Part shown: in pieces, positions 4,683 to 9,857 of the stretch
How positions within the stretch are numbered: position 1 is the stretch's first letter
Layout of the letters: each line of letters opens with the position of its first letter
Origin: Candidatus Nomurabacteria bacterium RIFCSPLOWO2_02_FULL_42_17
GTDB taxonomy: Bacteria; Patescibacteriota; Minisyncoccia; Phycocordibacterales; MFVN01
Assembly: GCA_001786095.1 (NCBI GenBank)
Contig: MFVN01000044.1
Coordinates: 5,338 to 20,760 of the forward strand
DNA: 15,423 bases
Direction of reading: 5' to 3'
Position numbers and translations under genes: made by a program
Notes under the pieces: generated by a model
What the model was told of the DNA's origin: nothing
Database searches by the model: none
What the model saw: only the letters and a program-made list of their open reading frames with translations

Positions 4683-4688
4683 ATTATA
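4683..4688 (-). promoter_or_regulatory. Extended -10 element overlapping the leuS stop codon
   Basis: On the minus strand TGGTATAAT is a perfect extended -10. Its hexamer includes the leuS TAA stop. The ATG at 4673 begins 9 nt later, giving a leader of about 3 nt. No good -35 is seen, as is usual for extended -10 promoters. It would allow the wzy/murJ pair to be transcribed separately from leuS. Confidence 0.5.
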
Positions 4689-7600
4689 CCACAATATTTA
4701 AAATACGACCGGGTATGTAAATAGTTTTTTGTGGATTACGGCCAGCCAGCCATTTTTGCACTGCTGGTAGTTCTAACGCCTTAACACAGACTTGCTCCTT
4801 GGTAATATCGGCCGGTACGGCCAACTCTGTGCGGGTTTTTCCATTGATTTGAACCGCGATTTTAACTTCCTTGTCTTTGATTTTTGCTTCGTCATACTCC
4901 GGCCAAGATTCCAGATGAATACTTTTGAAGTCAGACTTCGGGGACTTCTTTGAAGTCTGACTTCTCTGCCAAAGTTCTTCGGCGATATGCGGAGCAAAGG
5001 GAGATAATAGTTTTAAAAATATTTTATAGTCTTTAATTGTCACTTTGTTAGATTTTTCCATTTCATTCATTAAAATCATCATGGCTGAAATTGCAGTATT
5101 GAAACTCATTTTTTCTATATCTTCGCCAACTTTTTTGATGGTTTTATGGAGAAGTTTTTCTAGTATAGCGGAGTTGGCAGAGGATTTTTGAGTGTCTGGT
5201 TGAGCCCGAAGGGCGACCCGAGGACCGAAAAAATCCTTTGCCAACAAAGCTACTCTCCACATTCTTTCTAAAAATCTCCGCACACCAATAATACTTTCAG
5301 TGCTCCACGGCGCGTCTTGGTCAAAGGGCCCGATAAACATTTCATACAGACGCAAAGTGTCGGCGCCGTAGGTTTTCACAATACCGTCCGGATTAATAAC
5401 ATTGCCACGCGACTTGGACATTTTCTCTCCGTTTTCGCCTAGAATGAGCCCATGCGAAGTGCGTTTTTTATAAGGTTCGGAACTGGGTACAAGTTTTAAA
5501 TCGTATAAAAATTTGTGCCAGAAGCGCGAGTAAAGAAGGTGCAGGGTGGTGTGTTCTGTTCCGCCGTTATACCAATCAACAGGCATCCAGTAGTCTAATT
5601 TTTTCTGGCTTGCAAATTCTTTATTATTTTCTGGATCGCAATAACGCAGATAATACCAAGAACTTCCGGCCCAGTTTGGCATCGTGTCTGTTTCTCTTTT
5701 GGCTTTTCCCCCACATGTCGGACATGTGGTATTTACCCATTTTTCTATCGCTGTCAAAGGCGATTCGCCCGTGTTTGTCGGTTTATAATTTTTTATATCC
5801 GGCAACTTAACCGGTAAATCTTTCTCTGGCACCGGTACCCAGCCCGCATTTAAACATGTCGACCTGCCAGGTTGACATGTTTGTTTGGCGCAATTTTCGC
5901 AATACACAAGCGGAATCGGTTCGCCCCAATATCTCTGTCTTGAAAAAATCCAATCGCGCAGTTTGTATTTCGTCACTATTTTCCCGCCGACAAATTCAGT
6001 GATTTTTTTGCGGGCTTCTTTAGAACTTAAACCAACAAAACTATTAGAATTAATTAATGTTCCCTCCCCATCATAAAACCATGAATTCTGTTCAAGTCGG
6101 GTTAAAAAGATAGGAGGTTCAACTCCTATTACTATCTTCATGGCTTGCTCAACAGACAACCAAACAGGTTCATGTTTAGATTTTTCTTCAATAGAGATTT
6201 TATTTTTTTCCTCATCAATAATATCAAATAGAAAACCGGTTGCATATGCACGTCGATTTTCGTTTTTATGAGATGCAAAATACTCAGCATACATATCTCC
6301 AAGTTTCTTAATAAATTTAATGTTTTTATAACCAGTCTCTTCTTGTACTTCACGTGTGGCAGCTTGAAGTAAATCTTCACCATTTTCGACGCCTCCGATT
6401 ATTAATGTTTTCCAAGAATTATGTTTCCAGTGAAGTATAATGATTTTCCCATCACTCGGACGACGTAAAACTACTTGTACTGTCCGTCGAGGAATATTTT
6501 TTTTACCACGCTGGGGTGGATTTTTGAAATCCACACGATCAGGAACCACTACTTCAAGAATTGGTAGATTAAATTTCTTCGCAAATTCAAAATCTCTTTC
6601 GTCATGCGCGGGCACGGCCATCACTGCGCCGGTGCCATACTGCGGGAGCACATAGTCGGCGACCCACACCGGAATTTCTTCATTATTGGCTGGGTTTATA
6701 GCTTTGATTCCTTTTAACTCTACTCCGGTTTTTTGTTCTGATGTATTAGTACGTGATAACTCGGATTTATTTTTTACTTCTTCAACATACTTTTCAACTT
6801 CATTATAATTCGTAATTTTTAATTTCAAATTCTTAATTAACTCATGCTCTGGCGCAAGCACGACATAAGTCACGCCAAAAAGCGTATCTGCACGGGTAGT
6901 GAAAACTTTAACCCCACCCAAACCCTCCCCAAAGGGAAGGGCTTTTAAATGCTCTTCAATTTTCTCGAGTGTACCAGAAATATTGCTTAATATTTCTTCA
7001 TTCCTGAATCTTACAACCTGAAATCCTCTTTGTTTTAGAAATTCTGTTCGTTCCCCATCTTCCTTTTTTTGATAATCATGTATATCCCCATCAACCTCGA
7101 TTACCAGAGATTTTTCCAAGCAAACAAAATCTACTATAAAATTGCCGATAATTTGTTGTCTTCTAAAATGATATCCCATTAAATTTTTTCTTAATGATTG
7201 CCAAAGTATATCTTCGGCTTCCGTGGCATTTTTTCTCATTTCAAGCACTCTTCCCTGTAGAACTTTCCATGTTTTTGAATCAGTTGTGTGGTATCCGAAT
7301 TCCCCCTCCCCTTTGGGGGGGGCGGGGGTGGGGTTGATTTTAAACTCAATCTCACTGCCCTCCGACTTCCCAATCCAATTCCTTTGTTGAATTTTGACGC
7401 GCTCGGGATAATCAACCAAATCTAAATCTTTATCCAAACGATCGGCGTATTTGGTGATGGCCAACATCCATTGTTCTTTTTCGCGTTTCTCGGTCAATCC
7501 GCCACAACGCTCGCAATTTCCACTTATAACCTCTTCGTTGGCCAAGCCGATTTTACAAGACGGACACCAATTAATCGCGGATTTGGCCTTATAAGCTAAT

Positions 7601-8040
7601 CCTTTCTCAAAAAACTTCAAAAATATCCATTGTGTCCATTTATAATATTCCGGATCAGTAGTATTTACTTCTCGTGACCAGTCAAAAGAAAAACCCAGCA
7701 TCTTCATCTGCTTCCGAAAATTGTCCGTATTTTTTTTGGTGACAATTTTTGGATGTAAACCGGTCTTAACGGCGTAATTCTCCGTGGGCAGACCAAAAGC
7801 ATCCCAGCCCATCGGAAACAGAACATTAAAACCCTCCATGCGTTTTTTGCGAGCAATTATATCCATGCCGATATAAGGTCGCGGGTGTCCGACATGAAGC
7901 CCATCTCCAGATGGATACGGAAATTCAACTAGCGCGTAAAACTTTTTACCAGCATCCGCGGTTTTATAGATTTTCTTTTTCTCCCACTCTTTCTGCCATT
8001 TAGTTTCTATTTTTTTAGGATTGTAGTCTTGAGATTTCAT
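4684..8040 (-). CDS. leuS: Leucyl-tRNA synthetase with inserted DUF559 nuclease and Nudix domains
   Basis: Class I leucyl-tRNA synthetase, charging tRNA-Leu in the cytoplasm. About 1118 residues versus about 860 in E. coli. Visible in order: HIGH-type motif HVGH (about 49-52), a zinc-like knuckle CPSC..CERC, a DUF559 insertion (about 236-377), editing motif TTRADT (about 380), editing motif AHDERD (about 478), a Nudix insertion (about 503-644), RDWIFSRQRYWGEPIP, CENC and CPTCGG knuckles, KMSKS (about 872) and the C-terminal anticodon-binding region. Editing residues (the Thr pair and the Asp of HDERD) are retained. The start at 8040 is set by a 4-bp ATGA overlap with the upstream membrane-protein gene; the frame stays open upstream but that region is the other gene. 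Several palindromes are translated in frame. No frameshift or stop interrupts the frame, so the enlarged protein is probably made. Confidence 0.95.
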   Translation of the reverse strand: MKSQDYNPKKIETKWQKEWEKKKIYKTADAGKKFYALVEFPYPSGDGLHVGHPRPYIGMDIIARKKRMEGFNVLFPMGWDAFGLPTENYAVKTGLHPKIVTKKNTDNFRKQMKMLGFSFDWSREVNTTDPEYYKWTQWIFLKFFEKGLAYKAKSAINWCPSCKIGLANEEVISGNCERCGGLTEKREKEQWMLAITKYADRLDKDLDLVDYPERVKIQQRNWIGKSEGSEIEFKINPTPAPPKGEGEFGYHTTDSKTWKVLQGRVLEMRKNATEAEDILWQSLRKNLMGYHFRRQQIIGNFIVDFVCLEKSLVIEVDGDIHDYQKKEDGERTEFLKQRGFQVVRFRNEEILSNISGTLEKIEEHLKALPFGEGLGGVKVFTTRADTLFGVTYVVLAPEHELIKNLKLKITNYNEVEKYVEEVKNKSELSRTNTSEQKTGVELKGIKAINPANNEEIPVWVADYVLPQYGTGAVMAVPAHDERDFEFAKKFNLPILEVVVPDRVDFKNPPQRGKKNIPRRTVQVVLRRPSDGKIIILHWKHNSWKTLIIGGVENGEDLLQAATREVQEETGYKNIKFIKKLGDMYAEYFASHKNENRRAYATGFLFDIIDEEKNKISIEEKSKHEPVWLSVEQAMKIVIGVEPPIFLTRLEQNSWFYDGEGTLINSNSFVGLSSKEARKKITEFVGGKIVTKYKLRDWIFSRQRYWGEPIPLVYCENCAKQTCQPGRSTCLNAGWVPVPEKDLPVKLPDIKNYKPTNTGESPLTAIEKWVNTTCPTCGGKAKRETDTMPNWAGSSWYYLRYCDPENNKEFASQKKLDYWMPVDWYNGGTEHTTLHLLYSRFWHKFLYDLKLVPSSEPYKKRTSHGLILGENGEKMSKSRGNVINPDGIVKTYGADTLRLYEMFIGPFDQDAPWSTESIIGVRRFLERMWRVALLAKDFFGPRVALRAQPDTQKSSANSAILEKLLHKTIKKVGEDIEKMSFNTAISAMMILMNEMEKSNKVTIKDYKIFLKLLSPFAPHIAEELWQRSQTSKKSPKSDFKSIHLESWPEYDEAKIKDKEVKIAVQINGKTRTELAVPADITKEQVCVKALELPAVQKWLAGRNPQKTIYIPGRILNIVV
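4927..4964. repeat. Palindromic repeat translated in the leuS C-terminal region
   Basis: GAAGTCAGACTTC (4927-4939) and its exact reverse complement (4952-4964) are separated by 12 nt, and each arm is itself nearly palindromic. It encodes roughly SQTSKKSPKSDFKS, a low-complexity stretch with no counterpart expected in ordinary LeuRS, so it looks like an in-frame repeat insertion. Confidence 0.75.
5176..5214. repeat. Dispersed repeat (leuS copy) plus small hairpin
   Basis: Bases 5176-5204 match 13278-13306 in the lamin-tail protein gene at 26 of 29 positions and are read in the same frame (AQPDTQKSS versus TQPDAQKFS). The tail 5204-5214 (GCCC-GAA-GGGC) forms a short hairpin; the other copy is also followed, after a short gap, by a GAA-loop hairpin. 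Confidence 0.65.
5852..5882. repeat. 31-bp near-perfect palindrome translated in leuS
   Basis: Fifteen-base arms (AAACATGTCGACCTG and its near complement) surround a single central C, with one mismatch that would be a G-U pair in plus-strand RNA. It encodes TCQPGRSTCLN in the loop after the CENC zinc knuckle, adding two extra cysteines. It resembles a REP-type insertion. Confidence 0.75.
6110..6129. repeat. Hairpin at the C-terminal edge of the Nudix insertion
   Basis: ATAGGAG and CTCCTAT pair perfectly around a 6-nt loop. Encodes GVEPPIF at the point where the Nudix fold ends and LeuRS sequence resumes. Confidence 0.6.
6516..6534. repeat. Hairpin at the N-terminal edge of the Nudix insertion
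   Basis: GTGGATTT and AAATCCAC pair perfectly around a 3-nt TTG loop. Encodes RVDFKNPP just before the Nudix domain begins. Confidence 0.65.
6911..7334 (-). mobile_element. DUF559 (Vsr-like nuclease) cassette with terminal inverted repeats inside leuS
   Basis: A 424-bp unit read in frame as LeuRS residues about 236-377. The ends, 6911-6941 and 7304-7334, are inverted repeats matching at 26 of 31 positions. They are extremely G/C-skewed, with four G-runs on opposite strands, so each could form a G-quadruplex. Between them lies a full-length DUF559 domain (Pfam, PD-(D/E)XK-like, related to Vsr): TEAEDILWQSLR, YHFRRQQIIGNFIVDFVC and LVIEVDGDIH, with the putative catalytic Asp, Glu and His retained, then a C-terminal RTEFLKQRGFQVVRFRNEEI. 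It interrupts the loop between two strands just before TTRADT. No intein splice residues and no clear target-site duplication are visible. I read it as a domain-encoding mobile unit that landed in frame. Confidence 0.75.
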
Positions 8041-8600
8041 TCCCGGATTTTTTTGATACCCAACCATATTAATATACATAACGCCACGGCTAATACAGCC
8101 ACCCGCAACCAATCATCCATATCCGACCAATAACGCATTGAGGCAATAATTAATGATAAAATTCCACCCAAAGAAAGTCCTATGGAAACTACTTGATATT
8201 TTATAAAAAATCCGATCAATAAAGAAATTATGCCGGCCACTACTAAAATTACAAAAATATCTCGGTTATAAACCTTGGTCGCGCTTTCAAGACTTTGCCG
8301 GCAAGTATAATCCAAATCGCAATAACCCTCTGGGGCTTTTAGATCTCCTGCCGGCGCAGGACGGACCACTGACTGACTCTTGTAAAAATTTTCCTTATCG
8401 TAAGAAGTTGTAGCCGTCCAACCACCACCTGTCGCCAAACATTGTTCTTGTGTTTCGGGTGGGATAGTCACCTGTTCACGTTTACAAAAAGTGTCTTGCA
8501 GAGGTTCGTCGTATACCAGCGCCGCCGTATAATTAAAAAACAGATTAAGAACAATAATAATCGCCGCAACCAACACCCATTTAAGTATCTTTGGAGTCAT
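8037..8600 (-). CDS. Conserved-type membrane protein of unknown function
   Basis: About 187 residues from ATG at 8600 (MTPKILKWVL). One transmembrane helix lies at about 7-26, then an external domain of about 80 residues with four cysteines (in FCKRE, EQCLA, GYCDL and YTCRQ) that could form disulfides, then three more hydrophobic segments from about 112 to 183, and a short basic end (KKIRE). I do not recognise a named family. Its start overlaps the tsaC stop by 4 bp (ATGA), and its stop overlaps the leuS start in the same way, so it is translationally coupled between two translation genes. A longer reading upstream would run through the tsaC end and is unlikely. The linker encoding RPAPAGD includes a short palindrome. 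Confidence 0.8.
   Translation of the reverse strand: MTPKILKWVLVAAIIIVLNLFFNYTAALVYDEPLQDTFCKREQVTIPPETQEQCLATGGGWTATTSYDKENFYKSQSVVRPAPAGDLKAPEGYCDLDYTCRQSLESATKVYNRDIFVILVVAGIISLLIGFFIKYQVVSIGLSLGGILSLIIASMRYWSDMDDWLRVAVLAVALCILIWLGIKKIRE
8346..8361. repeat. Short palindrome translated as RPAPAGD
   Basis: TCCTGC and GCAGGA pair perfectly around a 4-nt CGGC loop within the external domain of the membrane protein. It looks like another short in-frame repeat insertion. Confidence 0.45.
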
Positions 8601-9161: not shown

Positions 9162-9200
9162 ATCTTCAGCGGTTTAACCGCTGAAGATTACTGAAGATTA
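9161..9200. repeat. REP-like palindrome downstream of the RAYT gene, with a 10-bp tandem duplication
   Basis: Perfect 14-base arms (9161-9174 and 9176-9189; core CAGCGGTT/AACCGCTG) surround one base. CTGAAGATTA is then repeated in tandem at 9181-9190 and 9191-9200, and the second copy carries the RAYT stop codon. The hairpin may also act as a transcription barrier or terminator. Confidence 0.85.
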
Positions 9201-9857
9201 AAAAAAGTACTTACCAATAAGCATTTCTAAACCATTCTTATTGTCTTTTACTTTTAAAATTTCTTCCAAAGAAGACCTCGTAAAATCTTCATATTCTTTA
9301 ATTGATTTAAATTGCTCTAATATTATTTTTTTATCACAAATATTTTTATCAGTTTTTCCTATATACTCACCCCAACTTGATTTTACGTTCTCAGCGGTTT
9401 CACCGCTGATTTTATGAACCTTATAGTTTAAATTTATATACACGCTTGTATGCAGGAGTTGTTCATTGGATTTAATATGTACTGATTTAAATGTTCCTTG
9501 AAAAAGGGAACCGGATCTTTTGTTTTTATTATTAAAATACCATGTATATCCACCTCCTATCCTTTTCATAAATTCACTTATACCGCCATCATTTATTTCT
9601 TTAAGCAAAAGATGAAAATGGTTTGTATTTAAATCATAACAAATAATTTTAACTAAGGCTTCATTAGGTTTTATATTTTTACCATTATTAGAAATAATCT
9701 CACGCAAACTTCTGATAGGTTCTTTTGAATTAAAAAATTCTAGACTTTGAATAAATCTCTCTACGTCCTCATTGTCTTTAATTATTAATCTCTTATCTAC
9801 GCCACGATTATAGACATGATAATATTCTCCAATTGCTATTTTTTCTCTATTTGCCAC
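9198..9857 (-). CDS. REP-associated tyrosine transposase (RAYT, Y1_Tnp family)
   Basis: 219 residues of the IS200/IS605-like Y1 transposase superfamily, RAYT branch, single-strand DNA nucleases thought to move REP palindromes. Visible signatures: YYHVYNRG (12-19), the HUH metal motif NHFHLLL (HFH at 80-82), YTWYFN with the likely nucleophile Tyr104, then SGSLFQGTFKS. The start is GTG at 9857, set by the open frame and by a TATAAT 7 nt upstream; the ATG overlapping this GTG is out of frame. The gene is bracketed by REP palindromes with the same CAGCGGTT core, and a third copy lies inside its own reading frame (ISGETAE). All catalytic motifs are intact, so it could be active. It is AT-rich and lies between two housekeeping genes, consistent with a mobile origin. 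Confidence 0.92.
   Translation of the reverse strand: MANREKIAIGEYYHVYNRGVDKRLIIKDNEDVERFIQSLEFFNSKEPIRSLREIISNNGKNIKPNEALVKIICYDLNTNHFHLLLKEINDGGISEFMKRIGGGYTWYFNNKNKRSGSLFQGTFKSVHIKSNEQLLHTSVYINLNYKVHKISGETAENVKSSWGEYIGKTDKNICDKKIILEQFKSIKEYEDFTRSSLEEILKVKDNKNGLEMLIGKYFF
9391..9409. repeat. REP-like palindrome inside the RAYT coding region
   Basis: TCAGCGGT and ACCGCTGA pair around 3 nt and share the core of the two flanking copies. Translated as ISGETAE in the C-terminal part, beyond the catalytic motifs. Confidence 0.8.

Follow-up and report, generated by a model that had tools for sequence, protein, structure and literature searches.

We analyzed a window of 15,423 nucleotides from Candidatus Nomurabacteria bacterium RIFCSPLOWO2_02_FULL_42_17 (MFVN01000044.1, positions 5,338-20,760), and all coordinates below refer to this window. 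It carries leuS, which encodes a leucyl-tRNA synthetase (LeuRS) with two inserted domains, DUF559 and NUDIX, in a stop-free frame of 1142 amino acids on the minus strand (4684..8112), the strand of every leuS feature described here. The leuS product matches the NCBIfam model TIGR00396 with 951 bits, and the DUF559-bearing protein is the single LeuRS match found in this genome. A preliminary description of this DNA had placed a complete DUF559 domain in frame within leuS, and we confirm that assignment. Pfam identifies a complete domain with LeuRS domains on either side (PF04480; aa 290-389, 6946..7245), with an E value of 2.8e-33 and a score of 114.5 bits against a curated cut-off of 20.6. The domain has the PD-(D/E)XK/EDxHD fold with conserved D, E.D and H, and it resembles the homing endonuclease I-Bth0305I and Vsr. 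The putative active-site residues D328, E339, D341 and H345 (VDF...IEVDGDIH, 7078..7131), previously described as retained, are invariant in 51 aligned LeuRS-DUF559 fusions.

The whole insert, arm to arm, is 426 bp long (6910..7335, residues 260-401). Its arms, at 6910-6941 and 7304-7335, are 32 nt each, 84% complementary and 362 nt apart, and they are the sole inverted repeat reported within 6500-7700. Local alignment of the DUF559 flanks gave a score of 19.5, and none of 100 shuffles scored above 13.5. In being bounded by terminal inverted repeats, the unit shares one feature with transposable elements. The arms had been reported as 31-bp inverted repeats (26/31) that coincide with the edges of the domain; the repeats are real, and the coincidence holds at the downstream edge, where the gap is 4 nt, and is looser at the upstream edge, which lies 58 nt from its arm. 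That gap is filled by a linker (GYHTTDSKTWKVLQ..., 7246..7303) resembling the linker of many in-frame relatives. The upstream arm (7304..7335) consists of an outer tail, AACCCCACCC, and an inner hairpin, CCCCCCCCAAAGGGGAGGG, and is translated as NPTPAPPKGEG; the downstream arm (6910..6941) consists of an inner hairpin, CCCTTCCCTTTGGGGAGGG, and an outer tail, GGGTGGGGTT, and is translated as LPFGEGLGGV. DUF559 is the sole domain that Pfam finds between the arms.

The insert lies between the sequences EIEFKI and KVFTTRADT, at the turn of a hairpin formed by the CP1 strand that directly precedes it (aa 249-259, 7336..7368) and the strand GVKVFT that follows it (aa 400-405, 6898..6915), the first two residues of which are encoded by the arm. 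In an AlphaFold2 model, strand 249-259 is followed by a low-confidence linker (261-273), the nuclease (approximately 279-390), a second low-confidence linker (392-398) and strand 400-405; the two linkers, with pLDDT below 50, are the translated arms. Because the model places these low-confidence linkers between the strands and the nuclease, both arms, once translated, would act as flexible linkers that suspend the nuclease from the hairpin turn.

Other identities for the insert were tried and rejected. An assembly error or pseudogene was rejected for this LeuRS on account of the single open frame, the kept catalytic motif, and the database protein cluster standing for it (P0001; 12 members from 11 contigs), which is 99% identical over the insert without being identical letter for letter. 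Intein or intron identity was rejected: Pfam and NCBIfam give no Hint or intein match in this LeuRS at E <= 0.001, Rfam gives no match of any kind in the window at the gathering threshold, group I and II introns included, and the leuS frame is open throughout. Given the missing Hint domain, the host protein would be expected to keep the insert without splicing. A defence-system identity rested on a weak and partial match to DpdF. As to phage origin, no match was found among 50,697 phage records, and none of 36 candidate stretches in IMG/VR was confirmed; plasmid matches comprised 27 records, each below 60% identity.

The leuS site in relatives

It had been reasoned that the same domain at the same place in all related LeuRS, with no inverted repeats, would speak against a mobile unit. 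The same-order relatives do not show this. Among 59 of them searched, some with incomplete assemblies, no LeuRS contig carries DUF559. Of the 29 that were aligned, all except L040 and L049 extend across the site, and each of these 27 lacks DUF559 there; same-order LeuRS have a short turn at the corresponding place. A wider search of genomes of the class gave matches in 30 of 383, with a long-frame copy solely in this genome. Where LeuRS does carry the insert, it occupies about the same place in 99 of 101 aligned rows, among them records labelled Patescibacteria and Bacteroidota.

The same CP1 turn holds other additions in some relatives: an alpha/beta-hydrolase-like domain (L028), an ITPase/YjjX-like domain (L046, L051) and a palindrome-like peptide (L031), the names being our own reading. 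The turn is a hot spot for insertions in LeuRS. The second inserted domain of the protein under study is separate: Pfam places NUDIX at aa 542-657 (6142..6489), in the same editing domain and outside the element, and a NUDIX-like stretch is also present in many same-order LeuRS (L028-L042, L045) and missing in others.

Terminal repeats and solo palindromes

We examined whether comparable ends accompany other DUF559 genes, whose absence would have counted against mobility. In a first sample, 39 of 50 loci have inverted repeats around DUF559; the other 10 of the original 60 loci, weak distant matches, had been left out since tblastn missed the domain. Such repeats surround DUF559 in 37 of 49 places of a second sample (34 of 46 after removal of three repeated places) and at 0 of 150 control positions of the same loci. 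Ends of the same architecture thus occur at most DUF559 genes examined. They often take the form of a C/T-rich hairpin with a tail (CCTCACCCC / GGGGTGAGG). In two LeuRS inserts that are in frame (L064, L068), the 36-nt arms are perfect repeats. Two copies in a single genome (G266) are 83% alike across 534 alignment columns, and the limits of this similarity are no more than about 10 nt away from the arms.

The only other DUF559 gene of the Nomurabacteria genome is free-standing, on contig C17. The proposal that copies of the leuS ends might bracket free-standing DUF559 genes held in part: this gene is bounded by palindromes of similar architecture, and their sequence differs from that of the LeuRS ends. 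The hairpin pattern occurs at 14 places in the genome and its reversed control at none. The LeuRS ends account for two of these places and the borders of the C17 gene for another two, and seven palindromes are in frame within other genes; of the remaining three, one is outside any long frame, one is at the start of a short frame and one is terminator-like. A separate search with CCCTTTGGGG returned real copies and two chance matches. The seven in-frame palindromes, which have no nuclease, lie in TGT (L161), MetRS (L155), RNase HI (L158), TsaD (L159), Fmt (L160) and, twice, in a UvrD-like helicase-nuclease (L151, L154; probably a single protein). The upstream side of the Fmt copy is masked, so that the downstream junction alone is readable. 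The TGT copy is a miniature version of the LeuRS element, with two hairpins and tails like those of the element and the nuclease absent. We read the hairpin loops as falling into two types, LeuRS-like and C17-like, as though each DUF559 had its own palindromes.

These solo palindromes resemble Rickettsia palindromic elements (RPEs), which are likewise palindromic, found in frame in unrelated genes and read as protein (PMC3733652, PMC10969869). RPEs are about 150 bp long in those accounts, whereas the palindromes studied here enclose a nuclease and the hosts belong to other phyla; at 426 bp with a nuclease, the LeuRS insert falls outside the RPE definition. The CGTC repeats, to which RPEs belong, seem to have no dedicated transposase (PMC10969869, PMC3733652).

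The hairpin-plus-tail pattern occurs in 64 of 379 Patescibacteria genomes, and the reversed control pattern occurs once. Of the 73 genomes that have a close DUF559, 56 carry palindromes, compared with 8 of the other 306 (odds ratio 123); within families holding both kinds of genome, the counts are 35 of 42 and 3 of 39. Part of this association is trivial, since the pattern also captures the elements' own ends. Pattern matches outnumber DUF559 by more than two to one in 35 of the 73 genomes, with overlapping matches at one place counted separately. Seven of the eight palindrome-bearing genomes without a close DUF559 lack any PF04480 match; in these eight, the palindromes may be relics or may move with another mobiliser. 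In one genome (G127), 89 pattern matches accompany a weak and partial DUF559 match, as if repeats could outlive the nuclease or be independent of it.

The eight genomes bear on a model in which the palindromes resemble repetitive extragenic palindromic (REP) sequences or miniature inverted-repeat transposable elements and are moved by another enzyme, such as a Y1 transposase of the REP-associated tyrosine transposase (RAYT) type, with DUF559 as cargo or stabiliser. The pairing of REP with RAYT is established (PMC3733652), and Y1 transposases are at hand in this genome: 11 family matches genome-wide, with an IS200-like Y1 transposase open reading frame in the window itself (9198-9857). Among the 379 genomes, 178 have Y1 transposases, and palindromes occur in 39 of these and in 25 of the 201 without (odds ratio 2.0, p 0.02). 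This weak association, to be set against the odds ratio of 123 for DUF559, is not significant once DUF559 is accounted for: p is 0.57 inside DUF559-positive genomes and 0.08 inside DUF559-negative genomes (6/133 versus 2/173). The palindromes moreover enclose DUF559 itself. We therefore consider it unlikely that DUF559 is a mere passenger.

In-frame copies in unrelated host proteins

A search of long proteins with this DUF559 gave 162 matches, and the best 120, with host names taken from precomputed Pfam domains, include 96 LeuRS, 10 acetyl-CoA synthetases and 7 RecJ proteins, together with one or two each of GpmI, UvrA and RsbU-type, oxidoreductase-type, methyltransferase-type and methylmalonyl-CoA mutase-type proteins. 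Medium-length proteins add TGT (13), chorismate synthase (5) and one each of FtsJ-, RluA-, YchF- and RsmD-type. Among loci in named genomes, 12 of 15 lie in host frames, namely LeuRS (8 at the same site and 2 at a second one), the IleRS of Marinilabilia rubra WTE16 (L063), and MetH; the frame is open on both sides in 10 of these 12, as far as contigs reach, the contig of L057 ending right after the insert. Cultured bacteria that carry the insert in LeuRS include Flavobacterium flavipallidum (P0120) and Psychroflexus sp. CAK57W (P0118). Hosts in Patescibacteria include riboflavin synthase (three), a Sua5/TsaC-type protein, a Mur ligase and an Elp3-like radical-SAM protein, and a seventh (L111) has no Pfam identity. 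The riboflavin synthase copies (L104, L108, L110), from three Patescibacteria genomes, sit at about the same place and belong to a DUF559 branch distinct from that of LeuRS. Four further candidates (L105, L106, L107, L112) were rejected as in-frame hosts, their long frames merely running into or out of neighbouring genes. In total, 21 types of host protein carry an in-frame DUF559, many of the records being metagenomic.

The catalytic motif is retained in all 150 in-frame proteins. In seven of them the domain begins within 30 aa of the protein start (truncated or newly started proteins, plus the RluA-type), so that a single junction is visible. The arms are translated as Pro/Gly-rich linkers, and motifs of translated arms were found upstream of the domain in 128 of 143 cases and downstream of it in 141 of 150, compared with 21 of 477 and 45 of 477 random windows. 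A Met that could serve as a start codon is present in 69 of 143 linkers, a count that is not decisive on independent expression. A search of short proteins passed 1317 matches, and among the 120 listed, four stand out with E values of 4.5e-50 to 6.6e-48 (P0127, P0151, P0152 and P0153), the next value being 8e-34. P0127 is a piece of TGT; the other three are barely more than the arm-to-arm element plus a start Met.

In a tree made with FastTree, one clade is in frame in 126 of its 128 members, with a support of 78, and spans ten host proteins; when P0152 and P0153 are included, the count is 126 of 130 and the support 15. Within this clade, 68 members, every one of them in frame, form a subclade with supports of 87 and 91. 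DUF559 domains from unrelated hosts are up to 76% identical. The number of host changes on the tree is at least 26 to 28, compared with a shuffle mean of 60. Since this is far below the shuffle mean, the elements appear mostly to persist or spread inside one host gene and occasionally to jump to another.

A candidate mobile element resident in host proteins

A domesticated accessory domain, recruited by LeuRS for repair, defence or regulation and inherited vertically with the repeats as relics, would account for the invariant active site across the 51 aligned fusions, for a dN/dS (nonsynonymous to synonymous substitution ratio) of 0.09 in one pair, the only one of five pairs free of saturation, and for the similar DUF559 domains in LeuRS pairs above 80% identity. 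It conflicts with the lack of DUF559 from the LeuRS contig of the 59 same-order relatives, with the spread of one lineage over many unrelated proteins, and with the perfect arms of L064 and L068. It also conflicts with the dependence of DUF559 identity on LeuRS identity, which is nearly flat below 80%: the median is 0.53 for LeuRS pairs at 30-45% and 0.60 for pairs at 70-80%. We consider domestication very improbable. Sporadic occurrence and host switching favour a selfish element, as judged by comparison of sequences.

A second alternative is site-specific homing alone, in which the nuclease would cleave the empty leuS allele (or that of TGT, RecJ and others), gene conversion would follow, and the palindromes would be dispensable for movement. 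The near-constant LeuRS position across Patescibacteria and Bacteroidota, the homology to I-Bth0305I and the clustering by host on the tree all agree with it. So does a pair of Sphingobacterium metagenome-assembled genomes (L058, L061) with inserts at the same site: synonymous divergence (dS) is 0.71 in the insert, for which the dN/dS of 0.09 was obtained, versus 0.22 in the host gene, and DNA identity is about 96% upstream, 79-90% in the insert and 88-93% downstream. This one pair fits replacement of an element at an occupied site, possibly re-invasion with co-conversion. Homing alone leaves unexplained the spread of solo palindromes into genes and the repeats on close relatives in unrelated host genes, and Pfam finds no DNA-binding domain adjoining DUF559 in the insert. 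We regard it as unlikely. Overall, the recurrent LeuRS site and the I-Bth0305I homology speak for homing, and the repeat ends, solo copies and host jumps speak for transposition.

Our best reading, to which we give a probability of about 0.7, is that the insert is a non-splicing mobile element that resides in host proteins and is driven by an EDxHD/Vsr-like DUF559 nuclease. The comparisons show how the element is built, that it sits in frame, that it has many host genes and a conserved active site, that related palindromes occur on their own, and that its distribution is sporadic. That the element is mobile, as first proposed, is well supported by its absence from LeuRS of same-order relatives, the occurrence of one lineage in frame in many unrelated proteins and similar ends elsewhere; we infer that DUF559 itself performs the movement, by what strand chemistry it does so, and that no excision follows translation. 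In the proposed mechanism, two palindromic terminal repeats would enclose the endonuclease, with no splicing domain, and the element would enter loops of conserved genes in frame and be translated within the host protein, where Pro/Gly-rich linkers from its ends would let the host enzyme and the nuclease each fold. The nuclease made within the host protein would cut or nick its own palindromic ends, the empty target, or both; repair would copy the element into the new site; and the survivors would be the in-frame, tolerated insertions only. Palindromes without DUF559 would spread in trans as short in-frame insertions. A stronger version, which we hold tentatively and at slightly less than even odds, is that these are autonomous elements that stay in the protein: the driving nuclease would be a domain of the essential enzyme it has invaded, and the repeats would serve both as DNA recognition ends and as linkers, with no need for splicing or excision.

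Several observations weigh against this mobile-element reading. Besides the eight palindrome-bearing genomes without a close DUF559, 11 of the 50 loci in one sample and 12 of the 46 in the other showed no inverted repeats, among them the in-frame L057, L063, L075, L108 and L111, and one search query contained the translated arms and may favour armed copies. No target site duplication was obvious at the inserts examined, close empty-site DNA being lacking for comparison. One LeuRS insert (L069) has a stop codon within the downstream arm, with LeuRS resuming in the same frame beyond it, and P0151-P0153 may be free-standing copies of the LeuRS-type lineage. Copies from one type of host tend to group together on the tree (26 host changes versus a shuffle mean of 60), and in the 12 LeuRS pairs above 80% identity the DUF559 domains are similar too (medians 0.73 and 0.99); because of these two results, inheritance together with the host gene is taken to be common.

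The element shares features with several known systems. REP elements with RAYT (REPtrons) are likewise small hairpin-plus-tail repeats, with solo copies and with two inverted copies around a mobility-type gene, whereas here the gene is a PD-(D/E)XK/EDxHD nuclease, no Y1 (HUH) transposase lies between the repeats and many copies are in coding frames. EDxHD/Vsr-like homing endonucleases such as I-Bth0305I have a homologous catalytic domain and occupy a conserved gene sporadically at a recurrent site; unlike I-Bth0305I, the element has no detected intron or intein around it, is not free-standing in LeuRS and has terminal inverted repeats. Inteins with a homing endonuclease also have a nuclease translated in frame inside conserved proteins, but the Hint splicing domain was not found in the element and linkers replace splice junctions. 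Vsr and VsrA (DUF559) very-short-patch repair proteins share the superfamily and active-site arrangement; these are free-standing genes, not described as repeat-bounded or host-embedded in the available portion of PMC12907096. Searches of an open-access library, which does not cover most subscription papers or any bioRxiv-only preprints, turned up no account of such DUF559 elements, and there DUF559 was never found together with "inverted repeat".

Homing nucleases are said (PMC3943268) to have been freed to invade highly conserved genes through association with self-splicing introns or inteins. If the reading proposed here is true, there would be another route into conserved genes, in which the nuclease remains in the folded protein and the repeat ends serve as linkers. 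It would also point to an enzyme that may mobilise some orphan palindromic repeats and to a natural route for domain insertion into proteins, in a form testable in cultured bacteria, and it would account for unusual additional domains found in essential enzymes of Patescibacteria and Bacteroidota.
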